Positions 11,046 through 18,922 of a DNA stretch of 64,000 nucleotides are shown piece by piece. Under the pieces are notes generated by a model that was given only the letters and a program-made list of their open reading frames with translations, was not told where the DNA came from and made no database searches. The stretch is from Thomasclavelia ramosa DSM 1402 (GTDB lineage: Bacteria > Bacillota_I > Bacilli_A > Erysipelotrichales > Coprobacillaceae). A program made the translations under genes and the position numbers. Location: positions 2,108,001-2,172,000 of the forward strand of contig NZ_CP036346.1 in assembly GCF_014131695.1 (NCBI RefSeq), written 5' to 3'. Within the stretch, counting starts at the first letter, position 1, and each line of letters opens with the position of its first letter.

Positions 11046-12995
11046 TTAAATATTTACAGTTTTACTAACTTGAACTTGTTCATTAACTTGAACATGTGAA
11101 TCTTTCTTTATTTCTGGTGTCTTTCTTCTCTTTGGAGTAATACCATATTGGTAAGTTGGCACAAGTTCCTTAATCAATGAACGAATATCATCTGTTTCTC
11201 CATATGCAGCTTCTTTTAAATTTATTAATCTTTCAACAAATGTATCCTCATTCATCTCAATCGGTTTTCCAATGTGAATCATATGATTAGGAGTATCTTG
11301 AAGCCCCTCCTCTTCCATAAGTAATTCTTCATATAACTTTTCTCCTGGTCTTAATCCAGTATACTCGATTTTTATATCAACATCCGGTTCATAACCAGAT
11401 AATTTAATTAAATTTTTTGCCATATCAGCTATTCTTACTGGCTCACCCATATCTAAAATAAAAATTTCACCACCCTTAGCATAGGCACCTGCTTGAAGAA
11501 CTAACGATACTGCTTCAGGGATTGTCATAAAATAACGAATTATATCAGGATGAGTTACTGTTACAGGTCCACCTTCTTTAATTTGTCTTTTAAATATTGG
11601 AATTACCGAGCCATTCGAACCTAGAACATTGCCAAATCTTACAGCAACGTATTCAGTTTGTGATCTTTTATTGTAAGTTTGAACAATCATTTCACATAAC
11701 CTTTTTGTAGCACCCATCACATTAGTTGGATTGACTGCTTTATCAGTCGAAATCAAAATAAATTTTTGTGCATTATATTTATCTGCAGCTCGAGCAACAT
11801 TTAATGTTCCAAAAACATTATTTTTTATTGCCTCATTCGGCGAATCTTCCATCAAAGGAACGTGTTTATGTGCAGCCGCATGATAAACAATATCAGGATG
11901 ATAAATCTCAAATAATTTATTGACCTTGACTTCATTTCTTACAGAAGCAATTAAAGTCTCTAAATTAAGTTCTGGATAATTATGCTTTAATTCTAATTGA
12001 ATATCATAAGCATTATTTTCATAAATATCTACAATTATTAATTGTTTTGGTTTATTTGCAGCAATTTGACGGCATAATTCACTACCGATTGATCCGCCCC
12101 CACCTGTTACCATAACAACTTTATCGGTTACATAGCCCATAATATCAGCTAAATTAACTTTTATTGGATCACGTCCTAATAAATCTTGAATCTCAACCTC
12201 TTTTAAATCAGAAATATGAACATCTTCATTAATAAACTGATATATTCCAGGCAACTTTTTTAACTTACATTTTGTTTCTTTACATATATTAAAGATATCG
12301 ATTAAATCTCTTTTACTTGCTGAAGGCATCGCTACCATAATTTCTTCTATCTTATATTTATTTACAGCTTCAATGATCTTATCACGACCACCATATATTG
12401 AAACCCCATGAATTGTTCGATTCCATTTACTTGGCTCATCATCAATAAAACAAATAACTTCTTTATAGATACTCTTTGAACCTAAAATCTCCTTATAAAC
12501 TTTTTCCCCAGCAACTCCGGCACCAATAATCATTACTTTTTCTAAAGGTCGTTGCTCTTTTCTTCCCCTTATATTATGACGCGCCGCATATAACCTAATA
12601 AAACGATAAATAAATCGACTTCCCCCAACCATCAATACTAATAATAAAAAGTAAATAAAATAACAACTTCTTGGTAATGGATTTCCAGTCAATTCACATA
12701 TTAAGATATTTGCTATGGCACTCATAATCGACGCAAATATAATATTTTTTAGTTCAATTATCGATGCAAACTGCCATAAACTATGATATAGACGAAAAGT
12801 AATAAAGATTGCTAATCCAATTAATATCATTGAACCAATCAATATATTTACTCTATGTAGATACTGAGACTCAATAGGTCCATTGAATCTCAATAATAAA
12901 GATCCATATGCAGCAATTATAATGCTAATAACATCAAAACTAACTAAAAATATTCGTCTAATATTCAGTTGCGTCTTTTCTCCCAATCTTTTCAT
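11046..12995 (-). CDS. capD: CapD/WbpM/PglF-type nucleotide-sugar 4,6-dehydratase
   Basis: 649 residues. Four N-terminal membrane helices (about 12-130) are followed by a small CoA-binding-like Rossmann domain (MIIGAGVAGEKVYKE) and then a large SDR domain from about 290: NAD-binding TGGGGSIGSELCRQ, AAAHKHVPLME, and an extended catalytic region. The family converts UDP-GlcNAc to a 4-keto-6-deoxy sugar at the membrane, the first step towards sugars such as FucNAc, QuiNAc or bacillosamine for capsule or teichuronic polymers. It is divergent from the cpsC-B-D operon and keeps all domains. No pathway partners (aminotransferase, glycosyltransferases) are in the window, so the end product is unknown. 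Confidence 0.9.
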   Translation of the reverse strand: MKRLGEKTQLNIRRIFLVSFDVISIIIAAYGSLLLRFNGPIESQYLHRVNILIGSMILIGLAIFITFRLYHSLWQFASIIELKNIIFASIMSAIANILICELTGNPLPRSCYFIYFLLLVLMVGGSRFIYRFIRLYAARHNIRGRKEQRPLEKVMIIGAGVAGEKVYKEILGSKSIYKEVICFIDDEPSKWNRTIHGVSIYGGRDKIIEAVNKYKIEEIMVAMPSASKRDLIDIFNICKETKCKLKKLPGIYQFINEDVHISDLKEVEIQDLLGRDPIKVNLADIMGYVTDKVVMVTGGGGSIGSELCRQIAANKPKQLIIVDIYENNAYDIQLELKHNYPELNLETLIASVRNEVKVNKLFEIYHPDIVYHAAAHKHVPLMEDSPNEAIKNNVFGTLNVARAADKYNAQKFILISTDKAVNPTNVMGATKRLCEMIVQTYNKRSQTEYVAVRFGNVLGSNGSVIPIFKRQIKEGGPVTVTHPDIIRYFMTIPEAVSLVLQAGAYAKGGEIFILDMGEPVRIADMAKNLIKLSGYEPDVDIKIEYTGLRPGEKLYEELLMEEEGLQDTPNHMIHIGKPIEMNEDTFVERLINLKEAAYGETDDIRSLIKELVPTYQYGITPKRRKTPEIKKDSHVQVNEQVQVSKTVNI

Positions 12996-13384
12996 TCTGT
13001 TCTATCTCCCTTCTAGAAACTCAGAAAAGTAACTACTTATCATTTCTCGATTTTCTAAAATCATTTAACATTCTATTTTTAAGCATGATAAAAGATTCTA
13101 TCAAATATACAAGGCAATTATGATTAATTTAAGACAATAAATCAAGTGATTTTCCATATTTTCTCTATTTTATTACAATTACCGACAATATCCATCATAA
13201 ATTTAATCTTATTTTCATTCTTTTTTTTAAATTTATAAAATAACAACTCTGTCACACATTCTATTTTAACATTTTTCTACAATAAATATTAATTTTTATT
13301 GGTAATTTCTTGCATTTTATCCGCTTATAAAGGATAATACGTTTTGGAATAGTTTTATTCAATATATTAATAATGGGAGGACTT
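12996..13384. other. 389-bp divergent intergenic region between capD and cpsC
   Basis: Very AT-rich. Holds a good sigma-A-type promoter for the + strand operon (see 13310-13338) and must hold the capD promoter on the other strand, which I could not place with confidence. No small gene was seen. Confidence 0.6.
13310..13338 (+). promoter_or_regulatory. Sigma-A-type promoter for the cpsC operon
   Basis: TTGCAT at 13310-13315, a 17-bp spacer, and GATAAT at 13333-13338; the start codon is 46 bases downstream. Confidence 0.65.
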
Positions 13385-14068
13385 ATGGATAAAAATGAAT
13401 TAAATGATGAAGTTGAAATCGACTTATCACAATTATTGAAATTACTGAAAAAGAATATTCGCTTGATTATTATCTTAGCCTTAGTCGGAATAATTATTGC
13501 AGCTTCTGCAACTACCTTTCTAATAAGTAAAAAATACCAGTCACAAGGAAGTGTATTATTAAAAGCTGATGTAGTTAATGGATCATTAGACTCAACTCAA
13601 GTTAATACAAATAAAATGATGGTAAATAACTATGTTAAATTATTACAAGGTAATAACATTCAAGATCAAGTTGCTAAAAACTTAAATATTACTTCTGCCG
13701 AAGTACGCAGTTCATTAAGTATTACAAATACTACTGATACACAAATTATTGAAATTTCTTCAACAACTGTTGATCCTGGACTTTCTAAAAGAATCGTTGA
13801 TGAAACAATTAGTGTTTTTACAACTTTAATCCAAGAAAAGCTAGATGTGACAAATGTTACGATCGTTGATCAGCCTGAAGTAAATCCTAATCCGGTTTCA
13901 CCAAGCATGGTTAAAAATGTTATTATTGGGGCAGTAGCCGGTATCGTTATTAGTTTGGGGTATTTATTACTTACATACCTATTAGATACTAAAATTAAAA
14001 ACGGTGAACAAGCTGAACAATATCTAGGGGTCCCTCTATTGGGAATCGTCCCTTTCTTTGAGGAATAA
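13385..14068 (+). CDS. cpsC: CpsC/Wzz-type chain-length determinant, tyrosine-kinase adaptor
   Basis: 227 residues from the ATG four bases after GGGAGG; the upstream ATG at 13373 lies within the RBS. An N-terminal Wzz domain (DLSQLLKLLKKN, then a membrane helix at about 25-45), an extracellular coiled part, and a second helix at about 175-200 with the NPNPVSPSMVKN motif before it give the classical two-TM topology. The C-terminal tail (LLGIVPFF) reaches into the cytoplasm and would touch the kinase CpsD. First gene of a four-gene operon with cpsB and cpsD, two bases before the next gene. It sets polysaccharide length and export. Confidence 0.92.
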   Translation: MDKNELNDEVEIDLSQLLKLLKKNIRLIIILALVGIIIAASATTFLISKKYQSQGSVLLKADVVNGSLDSTQVNTNKMMVNNYVKLLQGNNIQDQVAKNLNITSAEVRSSLSITNTTDTQIIEISSTTVDPGLSKRIVDETISVFTTLIQEKLDVTNVTIVDQPEVNPNPVSPSMVKNVIIGAVAGIVISLGYLLLTYLLDTKIKNGEQAEQYLGVPLLGIVPFFEE

Positions 14069-14070
14069 CC

Positions 14071-14847
14071 ATGGCATTTATTGATATACATAGTCATTAT
14101 GCTTGGAATGTTGATGATGGTATCGAAACTCGAGAAGATGCACAGGCAGCATTAAAAAAAGCTCAAATTCAAAATATTACTAAAATTGTAGCAACTCCTC
14201 ATCTTACTCCAGGAACAACTACAGCAAAAGAGTTTGAACAAATTAAAGAACGGATTGAGGAATTAAAAAAGCTTGCCAAAGAATATCAAATTGAAATCTA
14301 TCCAGGTTGTGAAGTTATGCTTAATGGAGACTATCTAGAACTATTAGATAATCATCAATATTTAACTATTAACAATGGACCGTATTTACTTGTTGAATTT
14401 AATGTTACTCAAAAATTACCCGAAGATTATGATGATCGTCTATATGAATATGGAATAAAGCAAAAAATTGTTATCGCTCATGTAGAACGTTATTTTCATC
14501 ATAGTATTGATTTAAATCTAATTCAAGAGTGGATTGATCGTGGCTATATTATTCAAGTTAACAGCACTAGTTTATTAGGAATCCATGGTAGTATGATTCA
14601 AGAAAACGCATACCAGCTATTAGATAATGGTATGGTTCATGTAATCGCTAATGATGTTCATCGCCCTAATGGTAAACGTAGTGTTAATCTCCAAGAGACA
14701 TATGAAGTTTTAGCAAAAAAATATCAAGCTGAGGATTTAACTAGACTCATGTATGATAACCCTCTAGCCATTATCAATGGACATGCGCCTGAATTAATAA
14801 AAGTTCGTAAAATATCTAAATTACCTTGGTTTAAAAGGAGAAAATAA
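14071..14847 (+). CDS. cpsB: CpsB-type PHP-family tyrosine-protein phosphatase
   Basis: 258 residues. PHP metal ligands are visible: DIHSH at residues 5-9, VDDG at about 14-17, ATPHL near 45, the conserved E of GCE, HVERY near 140 and ANDVH near 200. It dephosphorylates the CpsD-type kinase and thereby resets the polysaccharide assembly cycle. It lies two bases after cpsC and its stop abuts the ATG of the kinase gene, so the three regulators form one tight operon. Confidence 0.92.
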   Translation: MAFIDIHSHYAWNVDDGIETREDAQAALKKAQIQNITKIVATPHLTPGTTTAKEFEQIKERIEELKKLAKEYQIEIYPGCEVMLNGDYLELLDNHQYLTINNGPYLLVEFNVTQKLPEDYDDRLYEYGIKQKIVIAHVERYFHHSIDLNLIQEWIDRGYIIQVNSTSLLGIHGSMIQENAYQLLDNGMVHVIANDVHRPNGKRSVNLQETYEVLAKKYQAEDLTRLMYDNPLAIINGHAPELIKVRKISKLPWFKRRK

Positions 14848-15573
14848 ATGTTTAAAAAGAATAAAAAACAGAGTGAAAAAGACACATATCTGATTACTTC
14901 GCCAGATAAAAAGCATGGGAAAATCGATTTTAAAGAAGTATACCGCCACATTAGAACAAACATCGAATATTCTACTGTTGGTAAAAATGTTAAAGCAATC
15001 AACGTGACATCTTCAATTCCTAGTGAATCAAAAAGTACTACATCATTAAACTTAGCGATGATATATGCAACGAAATATGCAAATGTCTTATTGATTGATG
15101 CTGATTTAAGAAAAGCTACCCAGCATCGTTATTTAAAACTATCGAACTCACGAGGATTAACTAACGCTTTGATCGAATATGGTGAAACTAAAAAAATTAG
15201 TTCAAAATGTTTCCAATTCATTGAAGATGAATCGTTTGTAGGAAAATTATCAGTTTTAACTTCTGGGGTCAAAGTACCAAACCCTAGTGAATTATTAAGT
15301 AGTCAAATCTTCGAAGACTTTATTAATGAATTAAAAGGATTATACGATTTTATTATCATTGATTGTCCTCCAATTATGTTAGTTAGTGATGCTATTCCGA
15401 TTGGTAATGTGGTTGATGGAACAATCTTTGTTTGCTCATCACAACTAACTGGTCGTAAAGATGCTAAGGCTTCAATCGAAATCTTACAAAAGAATAATGT
15501 CAATATCCTTGGAACAGTATTAACTCAAGTAGAGCAAGATGGCTCTAGCAATGGATATTACTACTATTACTAA
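14848..15573 (+). CDS. cpsD: CpsD-type bacterial tyrosine kinase with altered Walker A
   Basis: 241 residues, 85 to 90 percent like the inverted copy at 9803-10528 by eye. Walker A' LLIDADLR and Walker B IIIDCPP are intact and the C-terminus ends in a run of five tyrosines. Walker A reads PSESKSTT, where the family normally has GEGKST and the other copy has NEGKST; the glycine before the lysine is a serine here. The Lys and Ser/Thr remain, so activity may be reduced rather than lost. It is in its native operon setting behind cpsC and cpsB, with RBS AAAAGGAG inside the end of cpsB. Confidence 0.9.
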   Translation: MFKKNKKQSEKDTYLITSPDKKHGKIDFKEVYRHIRTNIEYSTVGKNVKAINVTSSIPSESKSTTSLNLAMIYATKYANVLLIDADLRKATQHRYLKLSNSRGLTNALIEYGETKKISSKCFQFIEDESFVGKLSVLTSGVKVPNPSELLSSQIFEDFINELKGLYDFIIIDCPPIMLVSDAIPIGNVVDGTIFVCSSQLTGRKDAKASIEILQKNNVNILGTVLTQVEQDGSSNGYYYYY

Positions 15574-15575
15574 CA

Positions 15576-16553
15576 ATGAAAAATAAAAAAAACAGTATTT
15601 TTCTTATTGTTGTTCCAATTCTTTGTATTTTAATAGTAGCATTATTTGCCTATGATCGTTACCAAACCAACCAGTTAGCAAAAAAATTCAAGCAAGATAA
15701 TCAAACTGTCGATACTTCTAAAAACAATAATCAAACATCGTTAGAAAACAAATTACCAACTATCTATTGCGTTGGTGATAGTACAACGATTGGAACTAGC
15801 AAAAATACCAGTTATCCCAAATATTTAGAAAATAGCATTAATACAACTATTACTACTTTTGGAGATGACTCTATTAACAGTCTTGCTTTAGCAATTAAAT
15901 TTGGCGTTAGTGAAATCTATGTTAATAACTTTACGATTCCTGCAAAAAGTGAAGAAACTACAATTACCTTATTAGATAAAAATGGTCAGGCCGTAAATGC
16001 TATTTTAACAAGTAAGACCAATATTGATAAATGTACAATCAATAACATTGAAGGTTCCATCAATTATGATACAGCTAATAATCGTTTAGTTTTCAAACGT
16101 TCAAAAGCTGGTGAAAGTAGTAAAATCAATACTTTAACTAAAATAGAAGTAACAAAACCTGAAATTAATAAGGATAACATCTTAATATTATTTACTGGTT
16201 CTTATGAAGAAAGTGTTCAAGGAAGCTTAGCTGAATATCAAAAACAAATTATTAGTGCATTTAACACTGATAAATATATTGTTGTATCATTAACTCAAGA
16301 TGATCGTGATGCTACAAATAATTTATTGAAGACAACACATGGTGATCATTATTTAGATTTTAAAAGTTATTTATTAACAAGCGGTTTAAAAGATGCAGGA
16401 ATTACAGAAACTGCTCAAGATAAAACAAATCTAGCTAATAAAAATACTCCGTCTAGTCTTTTAGATGACAAGATAAATGGAAATAGCAAATATAATGAAT
16501 TATTAGCAAAACAGCTTACTGATAAAATGACTAAATTAGGTTATCTAAAATAA
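15576..16553 (+). CDS. Secreted or membrane-anchored SGNH-hydrolase-like protein in the cps operon
   Basis: 325 residues, beginning two bases after cpsD with no visible Shine-Dalgarno, so probably coupled. One N-terminal membrane helix (about 8-26), a Gln/Asn/Lys-rich linker and then an extracellular domain with YCVGDSTTIGTS at about residues 65-75, which resembles the block I GDS of SGNH esterases. A late GDHYLDF segment could stand for the DxxH block but the match is weak. Esterases of this kind add or remove acyl groups on capsule sugars; the assignment is tentative. It ends the operon at a strong terminator. Confidence 0.6.
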   Translation: MKNKKNSIFLIVVPILCILIVALFAYDRYQTNQLAKKFKQDNQTVDTSKNNNQTSLENKLPTIYCVGDSTTIGTSKNTSYPKYLENSINTTITTFGDDSINSLALAIKFGVSEIYVNNFTIPAKSEETTITLLDKNGQAVNAILTSKTNIDKCTINNIEGSINYDTANNRLVFKRSKAGESSKINTLTKIEVTKPEINKDNILILFTGSYEESVQGSLAEYQKQIISAFNTDKYIVVSLTQDDRDATNNLLKTTHGDHYLDFKSYLLTSGLKDAGITETAQDKTNLANKNTPSSLLDDKINGNSKYNELLAKQLTDKMTKLGYLK

Positions 16554-16565
16554 ATAAACTAGTTT

Positions 16566-16602
16566 AACACTTTAATTTTTAATAAAATTAAAGTGTTTTT
16601 TT
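16566..16602 (+). terminator. Terminator of the cpsC-cpsB-cpsD operon
   Basis: AACACTTTAATTTT / AAAATTAAAGTGTT stem with a short loop, then seven T. It closes the regulators' operon without any glycosyltransferase. Confidence 0.9.
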
Positions 16603-16756
16603 ATAGTTAACAGTAATTAACTTAAAAAAAATATAAAAGATATTATTATATCATAAATAAATTGTTTTTTATATATCAAATTTTTAATATTTTTTGTATT
16701 TTTTATCATTGTCACAAAATTATCTCAAATTTAAATAACTAAATTTAACTAATTAC

Positions 16757-16785
16757 TTGTTATTATGCCAAAAAAGATATATTAT
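16757..16785 (+). promoter_or_regulatory. Candidate promoter of the sortase module
   Basis: TTGTTA at 16757-16762, a 17-bp spacer and TATTAT at 16780-16785; the start codon is about 60 bases downstream behind AAGGAGGGG. Confidence 0.55.
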
Positions 16786-16844
16786 ATATGTGTATATTTG
16801 TGTATCTTTCGCAAATATTCTAAAACTAAAAAGGAGGGGACAAG

Positions 16845-17393
16845 ATGAAGAAACTTTTAAGTTCTTTAATGGTAGCTTGCTTAATGTTTGTTGCAACTAT
16901 CTCAACTGTTGGTGCTGTTGGTTCTATCACTGCTGATGAACAAAAAATCATCGATGCTTTAGAAGCTGGTGTTACAGTTGATGGAGTTAAAGTTAATCTA
17001 AAAGCTGCTGATATTAATGCTGCTAAAAATTACTTAACTAACAATGATGTTACAGCTGCTCAAGTGACTACTATTTTGAACAACATTGAAGGAGCTAAAT
17101 CTTATATGCAAACTAATCATATTAAAGATATCGCTTCTATCAAAGGTGCTCATGCCACTGCAATTTTAGGTTTCGCTCAAGCTGCAGCTGATGTACTTGG
17201 GTTAACTATTAAAGTTGGTGCTGATGGTACTGTCACTGTTTACAAAGGTAGCGAAGTTGTTTATTCAACTACAAACGTTATCAAAAAGACTGGTTATGAT
17301 TTCACTCAAACTGCTGTAATGGCAGCTGGACTTGTAGCTGTATTATTCGGTGCAGGATATTACGCTAAGAGAAAACAACTTTTAGTTAAATAA
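16845..17393 (+). CDS. Small secreted surface protein, likely substrate of the adjacent sortase
   Basis: 182 residues with a very strong RBS (AAAGGAGGGG). Signal peptide at 1-24 (cleavage near GAVGS), an Ala/Asp/Asn-rich helical domain (about 25-130), a short beta-rich part, then IKKTG, a membrane helix at about 154-173 and a KRKQ tail. That is the shape of a cell-wall sorting signal, but the pentapeptide is not LPXTG. The gene lies three bases before a class D sortase gene and is most likely its dedicated substrate. No function beyond surface display is recognised. Confidence 0.75.
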   Translation: MKKLLSSLMVACLMFVATISTVGAVGSITADEQKIIDALEAGVTVDGVKVNLKAADINAAKNYLTNNDVTAAQVTTILNNIEGAKSYMQTNHIKDIASIKGAHATAILGFAQAAADVLGLTIKVGADGTVTVYKGSEVVYSTTNVIKKTGYDFTQTAVMAAGLVAVLFGAGYYAKRKQLLVK

Positions 17394-17395
17394 TC

Positions 17396-18064
17396 GTGCG
17401 ATTAAAACATAAGCAAAAAAAGATAATGGCACTAGTATTAGTGCCATTATCTTTTACCATTATCTGCTACCTAGTATTATTTTTAATAATTAGTCCAATT
17501 ATTGAACCAGTCATGTCTATTTACAGTCTTGTTGCTAGTGAACATGCACCAAATTTAAATGATAACAGCAACAAAGATCTATATAAAAATAAACTAGTTA
17601 GTTCTGCTACTATTAAAGCTTCAGAAGTAGTAATGCCTTCTTATGGTGACCTATTTGGTAAAATAACCATTGATTCTGTCAACAAGACAATTAACCTATA
17701 CTATGGTGATGGTAATGATCAGCTTCGTAAAGGCGCTGGATTATTCAACGGTTCATTTTTACCAGGATTTAACCGTACTTCATTAATTGCCGGTCACTCA
17801 TTGCCTTACTTTGAATGTTTAGGTGATGTCAATGTTGGAGATATTATTAAAATATCTACCCATTATGGTGATTTTGAATATAAAATAACAGATACTAAAA
17901 TTGGTAAAGCTACTGATGAATCAAATTACGATCTTGCCCAAAGCGAGAAAGAACAATTGATCTTATATACATGTTATCCATTCGAATTGATTGGTTACAA
18001 AGCTGACCGTTTATTTGTTTATGCAGATAAAATAAGTGGTCCAACGATCTTGGAGGGACAATAA
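17396..18064 (+). CDS. srtD: Class D-like sortase
   Basis: 222 residues starting at a GTG two bases after the previous stop. N-terminal membrane helix at about 11-33, then the sortase beta-barrel with His134 (AGHSLPYF), Cys193 (LYTCYPF) and Arg205 (KADRLFVYA), the complete catalytic triad. TLxTC followed by Y/W-P-F is typical of class D enzymes such as those of Bacillus and Clostridium. It attaches surface proteins to peptidoglycan or another nucleophile. It lies between its probable substrate and a four-TM partner that overlaps its 3' side. Confidence 0.88.
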   Translation: MRLKHKQKKIMALVLVPLSFTIICYLVLFLIISPIIEPVMSIYSLVASEHAPNLNDNSNKDLYKNKLVSSATIKASEVVMPSYGDLFGKITIDSVNKTINLYYGDGNDQLRKGAGLFNGSFLPGFNRTSLIAGHSLPYFECLGDVNVGDIIKISTHYGDFEYKITDTKIGKATDESNYDLAQSEKEQLILYTCYPFELIGYKADRLFVYADKISGPTILEGQ

Positions 18065-18065
18065 C

Positions 18066-18893
18066 ATGGCAAGAAAAAAATCAAGTAGTCGAACTACATT
18101 ATCGTATATTTTATCATTATTAATTGCAATCTTTCTAAGTATCTTAGTAGTTCTAACAGTAACTCGTTTTACTGTTATGTCTCCAGGTTTCTTAATTTCT
18201 AAAATGGATGGAGCTGATTTTTATAAACAATCAGTTGTATCATTAAATGAAGAGATCCAGCAAGAAACACAGTCAACAGGATTTCCTATAGAAATGTTTG
18301 AAAACTATGTTGATGAAGATACTGCTAAAACAGCAATGGAAAAATACATTAATAATGCCTTTGATGGTGGTGAAACCACTATTAACACAACTGAATTTGA
18401 AACAAAACTTACCCAGGATATAGATAACTATTTAACAACTAATAATATTATTATTAATAGTGAATCACAAGAAGCAATTAGCGTACTGAAAAGTAACTTG
18501 ATTGATTTATACAAAAGCTATTTATCATTCCCTTATCTAGCCCTTGTTATTGATGTTATAAATACATATGATGGAATCTTTTTAATTGCGGCAGCAGCTT
18601 TAGTTGTTTTAATCGGATTAGCAAGTTTCTTATTATATCGCCTATATAGTCATTATCAAGGTAGAAGACGCTATTTCTCATATGCCCTATCGGCTTCTGG
18701 TTTAATGTGTTTCGCTTTACCATTCTTTATCTATATTGGTAAATTTATTGATAAAATCAGTTTATCACCTGCATATTTCTATAATTTCTTTACAAGTACC
18801 TTAAACTCTTACATGTTGACATTTGTAATCGTTGGTTTAGTAATGATTGTTTTAGCAAATATTGTAGCGTATATAAAATTTGAACGAAAATAA
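18066..18893 (+). CDS. Sortase-linked polytopic membrane protein
   Basis: 275 residues from the ATG behind TTGGAGGG, which lies inside the last codons of the sortase gene. One N-terminal helix (about 12-35), an extracellular domain of about 125 residues rich in Glu, Thr and Asn, then three helices (about 170-195, 205-230 and 245-270) and a short basic tail. No family is recognised with confidence. Its constant partner position behind sortase and substrate suggests a role in presenting the substrate or in holding the sortase. Confidence 0.7.
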   Translation: MARKKSSSRTTLSYILSLLIAIFLSILVVLTVTRFTVMSPGFLISKMDGADFYKQSVVSLNEEIQQETQSTGFPIEMFENYVDEDTAKTAMEKYINNAFDGGETTINTTEFETKLTQDIDNYLTTNNIIINSESQEAISVLKSNLIDLYKSYLSFPYLALVIDVINTYDGIFLIAAAALVVLIGLASFLLYRLYSHYQGRRRYFSYALSASGLMCFALPFFIYIGKFIDKISLSPAYFYNFFTSTLNSYMLTFVIVGLVMIVLANIVAYIKFERK

Positions 18894-18895
18894 TG

Positions 18896-18922
18896 CGCTT
18901 GTAATTAATACAAGCGTTTTAT
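18896..18922 (+). terminator. Terminator of the sortase module
   Basis: GCGCTTGT / ACAAGCG hairpin followed by TTTTATTTT, directly after the stop codon. Confidence 0.85.

Follow-up and report, generated by a model that had tools for sequence, protein, structure and literature searches.

A conserved three-gene sortase unit of Thomasclavelia and its relatives with a terminator-like hairpin inside the sortase gene

Results

A probable three-gene surface-display locus in Thomasclavelia ramosa

The window, by which we mean the whole 64,000-nucleotide stretch analysed, comes from the closed 3.25 Mb genome of T. ramosa DSM 1402, whose genus also holds T. cocleata and T. saccharogumia. At positions 16757-18917 lies a putative surface-display triad that consists of a small secreted substrate, a sortase and a four-TM membrane protein, the last referred to here as gene 3. 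The features of the locus, with the evidence for each, are the following.

16566..16604, + strand: A/U-rich hairpin with a T7 run at the end of the upstream polysaccharide operon, read from the sequence (too few G-C pairs for the terminator scan to list)
16757..16785, + strand: sigma-A-type promoter TTGTTA-N17-TATTAT, from the promoter scan
16833..16839, + strand: strong Shine-Dalgarno sequence of the substrate gene, GGAGGGG, from the sequence
16845..17393, + strand: substrate, 182 aa, signal peptide at about residues 1-24; homologues in 14/14 triads
17280..17294, + strand: sorting motif IKKTG, substrate residues 146-150, followed by a hydrophobic helix and an AKRK tail
17396..18064, + strand: sortase, 222 aa, GTG start, N-terminal TM anchor, without a good RBS; from profiles and alignment
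17795-17797, 17972-17974 and 18008-18010, + strand: sortase active-site codons H134, C193 and R205, from the alignment
17418..17455, + strand: terminator-like hairpin inside the sortase ORF, with a 17 bp stem, a loop of 4 nt and a U-run at the end, sortase codons 8-20
18052..18057, + strand: Shine-Dalgarno sequence of gene 3, GGAGGG, within the 3' end of the sortase gene, from the sequence
18066..18893, + strand: gene 3, 275 aa, four TM helices, from hydrophobicity and an AlphaFold model
18895..18917, + strand: terminator closing the unit, readable on the minus strand too, from the terminator scan

In the other five Thomasclavelia genomes a block matching the promoter, TTGT[TC]A / ATATTAT, also precedes the substrate gene. 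An earlier note on this DNA had described a promoter, a 182-aa secreted protein, a sortase, a polytopic protein and an end terminator, and all were found where claimed. Its picture of an operon bounded by terminators holds for the outer hairpins; the further terminator-like hairpin within the sortase ORF had been missed.

In Thomasclavelia the triad comes after wzz, cpsB, cpsD and a gene for a 325-aa protein. The neighbours differ in other lineages, so that conservation is limited to the triad itself. The triad borders surface-polysaccharide genes in several lineages (L114:8076-13614, L116:6860-12000, L036:3-1163 and window 11046-16553), among them flippases, glycosyltransferases, sialic-acid-type enzymes and wzz/cps regulators. 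The 325-aa protein that ends the wzz-cpsB-cpsD operon (window 15576-16553) is conserved, has one TM segment and a GDSTT motif, and looks by eye like an SGNH hydrolase; no family reached its cut-off. In three lineages small membrane proteins that by eye are VanZ-like occur close to the triad, and they also adjoin a decayed copy in G218 (L036:3490-3735, L115:7072-7605, L116:3900-4367, L085:12284-12847).

Distribution and co-inheritance of the triad

Profile searches with all three proteins recovered the triad, with identical gene order and strand, in 14 genomes representing six lineages: six Thomasclavelia; Longibaculum muris (G028), G456, G449 and G471 from its own order; and, at the level of the class, G379, G104, G285 and G218. 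Among the 148 genomes of the order, the set of ten that carry the substrate coincides with the set showing a strong gene 3 match, and these ten also give the top ten sortase matches. A search of genome contigs with gene 3 retrieved only Thomasclavelia, its close relatives and Longibaculum, the profiles reaching wider; the survey covered genomes outside the Clostridia (GTDB Bacillota_A), and the triad may range wider than reported here. A scan of viral contigs with the substrate gave no match.

The three protein trees are congruent (r 0.88-0.90 between proteins). Longibaculum groups with G456 in all three, and for substrate and sortase G379 adjoins the G104 group. The triad is absent from 3/9 genus members and is therefore dispensable. 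Fourteen of the 15 intact gene 3 members are adjacent to a sortase, the single exception being an intact homologue in G027 (hhalign probability 97), so gene 3 is not strictly sortase-bound. The earlier note had itself proposed a neighbourhood survey as a check and had counted gene 3 occurring mainly without sortase against its reading; the survey bears the conserved triad out, and the only solo intact copy is that of G027. That homologue (L010:1513-2358) sits between an acetolactate-synthase-like gene and another metabolic gene. The decayed copy in G218 noted above is a second copy, and in the draft assembly of VE202-01, one of the ten genomes of the order, the substrate (L034:4220-4848) lies in two frames, split at about codon 50, through either an assembly error or a true frameshift.

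A proline-free sorting signal in the substrate

The substrate combines a strong Shine-Dalgarno sequence (AAAGGAGGGG) with a signal peptide, the motif I146-KKTG-150, a hydrophobic helix and the tail AKRKQLLVK. It passes the NCBIfam LPXTG_anchor model (TIGR01167) at 18.0 bits against a cut-off of 15.9, having the signal peptide, T-G motif, helix and basic tail of that family without the leucine-proline part of LPXTG. The non-LPXTG signal read in the earlier note (IKKTG, helix, KRK) is thus present, and it is general: all 14 substrates carry [LIV]xxTG, none with proline at position 2. The motifs observed are IKKTG, IKRTG, LKRTG, LERTG, LENTG, VKNTG, LVQTG, LGNTG, LNDTG and LESTG, followed by a helix in 14/14 and by a basic tail in nearly all.

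The host genome encodes two sortases and about 30 proteins with anchor matches over the cut-off. The other host anchors that were read mostly have xKTGD endings (SVKTGD, SPKTGD, AAKTGD and similar). The signal of the triad substrate is distinct from most of these, which fits a dedicated enzyme; the second host sortase would presumably serve the other anchors. On these features the substrate is probably attached to the cell wall by the adjacent sortase. Its structural model is poor (pLDDT 59) and gives no function, and comparison of this model with PDB structures yielded no convincing match.

The sortase is a divergent relative of class D

The sortase is a clear member of Pfam PF04203 (60.4 bits, cut-off 26.6). 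The catalytic His134, Cys193 and Arg205 reported as intact in the earlier note are so, and are invariant in the 11 aligned sortases. The assignment to class D in the same note stands only in part. Class D is the best-scoring sortase class for all 11 members, the window sortase remaining below the curated cut-offs of the models NF033746 (102.8 versus 165 bits) and NF058671 (110.8 versus 140 bits). Sequence and alignment give it an N-terminal TM anchor and no C-terminal TM helix, as in class D. The LPxTA or LPxTG substrate signal of class D, with its proline, is not what the triad substrates carry. The enzyme is best described as a putative divergent branch next to class D.

Class C sortases carry a C-terminal TM helix. 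Polymerization of the substrate as a pilin is highly improbable: substrate and sortase do share an operon, and related plasmid sortases adjoin SpaA-type pilin-like genes, but the triad has a single small helical substrate, with pilin fold and second subunit absent, and its sortase lacks the class C helix.

Kinship with class D also raises the question of sporulation. The best-known class D members act on sporulation proteins (PMC4498605) and relatives of Thomasclavelia are spore formers (PMC10868615), so the triad might be a sporulation-stage sortase system like B. anthracis BasI/SrtC. We regard this as very unlikely, given that the conserved promoter is of sigma-A type, that no sporulation-type promoter was noticed, and that substrate family and sorting motif differ. 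The model for processed acidic surface proteins, TIGR04383, did not match the window substrate and matched weakly in 3/13 of its relatives (best E 0.011).

Two other gene arrangements were seen. Behind other class D-like sortases of the order lies a membrane protein of another kind, which has one or two TM segments and a helical domain outside the membrane and may be related to gene 3 in shortened form (L088:4345-5729, L089:4380-5596, L091:1165-2225, L093:4916-6999, L094:4590-6016). The other arrangement is a second type of substrate-sortase pair, in which a repeat protein of ice-binding-like type, with LPNTA or LPDTG at its end, accompanies a sortase (L090:5276-6776, L092:3592-5107), with neither an internal hairpin nor gene 3.

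Gene 3 encodes a four-TM protein with an extracellular helical cap

The likely start of gene 3 is the ATG at 18066, preceded by TTGGAGGGAC. Hydrophobic segments lie at residues 15-33, 171-189, 207-225 and 250-268 of the 275-aa product, and in the AlphaFold model (pLDDT 71) short helices form a cap that follows TM1 and precedes TM2-4, the extracellular helical domain of about 130 residues occupying the TM1-TM2 interval. Searches of Pfam, NCBIfam and PHROGs gave only sub-threshold matches to unrelated proteins and a search of BFVD gave none; the earlier description of a polytopic protein with an extracellular domain and no recognised family is borne out, no Pfam or NCBIfam cut-off being reached.

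The best four structural matches of the model are entries of Lit, the lipoprotein intramolecular transacylase (7B0O-7B0R; VIA Z 10.6 over 184-189 residues, rmsd 3.7-3.9), although helical models often reach such Z values by chance; the Foldseek probability is 0.51. Lit has four TM helices with an extracellular cap and uses the catalytic residues His85 and His153 (PMC8275575). The model of gene 3 suggests a similar topology with a larger cap. Its product in the window has one His, located in a cytoplasmic loop, and no His is invariant among the homologues. PF07314 (Lit) matched none of the gene 3 homologues, and comparison of the gene 3 profile with 17 Lit proteins gave an hhalign probability of 8.8 over 27 columns. 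With both catalytic histidines and profile similarity absent, we rejected gene 3 as a member of the Lit family; it may possibly share the Lit fold.

Gene 3 could also be read as a Lit-like lipid- or substrate-modifying enzyme near the membrane, or as a separate function carried along; the four top matches, the similar topology of the model and the solo homologue in G027 speak for such readings. They are unlikely: counterparts of His85 and His153 are missing, the profile comparison gives a low probability, helical models commonly reach a Z of about 10, and almost every intact member lies beside a sortase. The co-inheritance makes a membrane partner of the sortase, putatively the assembly factor suggested in the earlier note, a plausible role of gene 3. 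One might speculate, by analogy, that a pocket at the membrane surface accommodates the C-terminal helix of the substrate or a lipid.

A terminator-like hairpin within the first codons of the sortase gene

Among the new features of the unit, the hairpin inside the sortase gene is the best supported. Its 17-bp stem at 17418-17455, which the terminator scan listed on the minus strand, lies over the membrane-anchor codons. A hairpin with a U-run occurs in 14/14 triads, always within the first 20-25 sortase codons and starting 1-55 nt (mostly 13-28) past the substrate stop codon. The hairpin sequences differ: AATGGCACTA forms the stems in Thomasclavelia, GGGATTAC those in the G104 group and GCAACTATTA that in G379. 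At least four U follow the stem in all triads, and up to seven in G104/G218.

A coding-only test compared folding energies after sortase codons 1-30 had been redrawn with synonymous codons of the same gene. Folding energy served as the score because an ungapped stem score misses the bulged hairpins of Longibaculum and G449. In each of the triads the real hairpin was better than at least 97% of its synonymous alternatives; combining one representative per lineage, six in all, gave p = 8e-9. A folding energy of -14 kcal/mol was reached by 11 of 278 background ORFs, nine of them triad sortases; a comparable hairpin was absent from six control sortases of the same order. With a stable stem, a U-run and conservation beyond coding need, the element has the sequence hallmarks of an intrinsic terminator or attenuator and is predicted to be one.

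We consider it fairly unlikely that the hairpin instead serves to stabilise or process the substrate mRNA, or that it is a palindrome in the DNA recognised by a regulator. The substrate mRNA would also gain stability from such a structure at its 3' end, and some triads show only T4 after the stem; yet each stem does end in the run of U expected of intrinsic terminators, and Rfam gave no match. A single DNA-binding protein is hard to reconcile with stems whose sequences are largely different across the six lineages.

The RBSs point in the same direction as a partial terminator. In the window the substrate has the best RBS of the three genes and gene 3 a good one, and the sortase, whose GTG starts 2 nt past the substrate stop, has no good RBS. 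The earlier expectation that the substrate should be abundant gains indirect support from these RBSs and the internal hairpin. On the best reading, partial termination and weak sortase translation would together keep the substrate above the enzyme.

Discussion

We find it reasonably probable that the triad is a dedicated, co-inherited surface-display unit in which RNA sets the ratio of substrate to enzyme and gene 3 is a membrane partner of the sortase. In the following scheme we infer that the substrate is linked to the wall, how efficiently transcripts terminate, that ribosomes gate read-through, and what gene 3 does. One vegetative sigma-A-type promoter would yield a small helical secreted protein with a mature form of about 13 kDa, and the adjacent sortase would cut its C-terminal [LIV]xxTG signal and transfer it to the cell wall. 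The strong RBS would drive the substrate, and the hairpin in the first sortase codons would halt most transcripts right after it. In Thomasclavelia the sortase is probably translated by re-initiation from the substrate stop codon, and the re-initiating ribosome would melt the hairpin, allowing read-through into the sortase and gene 3. In G104/G285/G218 the sortase starts 15-18 nt downstream of the substrate stop and a purine-rich stretch may serve as RBS, so re-initiation is less needed there. Gene 3, whose helical cap faces outwards, would most likely act together with the sortase, for instance by keeping the substrate in place or offering it to the enzyme. A bolder version, rather doubtful and offered tentatively, sees gene 3 as the founding member of a new family of membrane partners on which a proline-independent sortase branch depends, with the ribosome-melted terminator tying enzyme and partner to translation of the substrate.

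Dedicated sortase-substrate pairs are already known. What is new is the undescribed membrane partner that accompanies the pair in six lineages, the proline-free sorting motif, and a terminator-like element conserved in the start region of a protein-coding gene. As a display unit of three genes the triad is real and conserved, and it is apparently undescribed: a literature search, with few subscription papers within reach, found no published account of it. Such a system opens the questions of whether a sortase needs a membrane cofactor, how a proline-free signal is read, and how a substrate/enzyme ratio is hard-wired.

Among known systems, the class D sortases SrtC of B. anthracis, with BasI/BasH, and SrtD of C. 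perfringens (CPE_RS01475, with CPE_RS01465) (PMC4498605) are nearest in profile and share the Cys/His/Arg active site, and in C. perfringens the substrate gene is likewise within the sortase operon (PMC4498605). Their signals are LPNTA or LPQTGS (PMC4498605), in contrast to the proline-free IKKTG. The triad differs further in its sub-cut-off scores, vegetative-type promoter, four-TM partner and hairpin within the sortase ORF.

A terminator melted by a translating ribosome is described for the pil1 sortase pilus operon of Streptococcus gallolyticus (PMC3894217), where the switch is a leader peptide that precedes every structural gene (PMC3894217), whereas the triad hairpin lies after the substrate, within the sortase gene, and would fix a ratio. 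On Bacillus and Planococcus plasmids, too, class D sortases follow their substrates, with a strong hairpin between the two genes in 2/3 systems. The logic is thus not unique, and the triad differs by the intra-ORF position of its hairpin; in the plasmid systems the hairpin is intergenic, the substrates are large and of the SpaA or MucBP kind, and the annotation shows no four-TM partner next to them. The two strong plasmid hairpins separate the large substrate from its class D sortase and lie upstream of 4037 in L167 and upstream of 4010 in L169, these being a Bacillus velezensis and a Planococcus plasmid.
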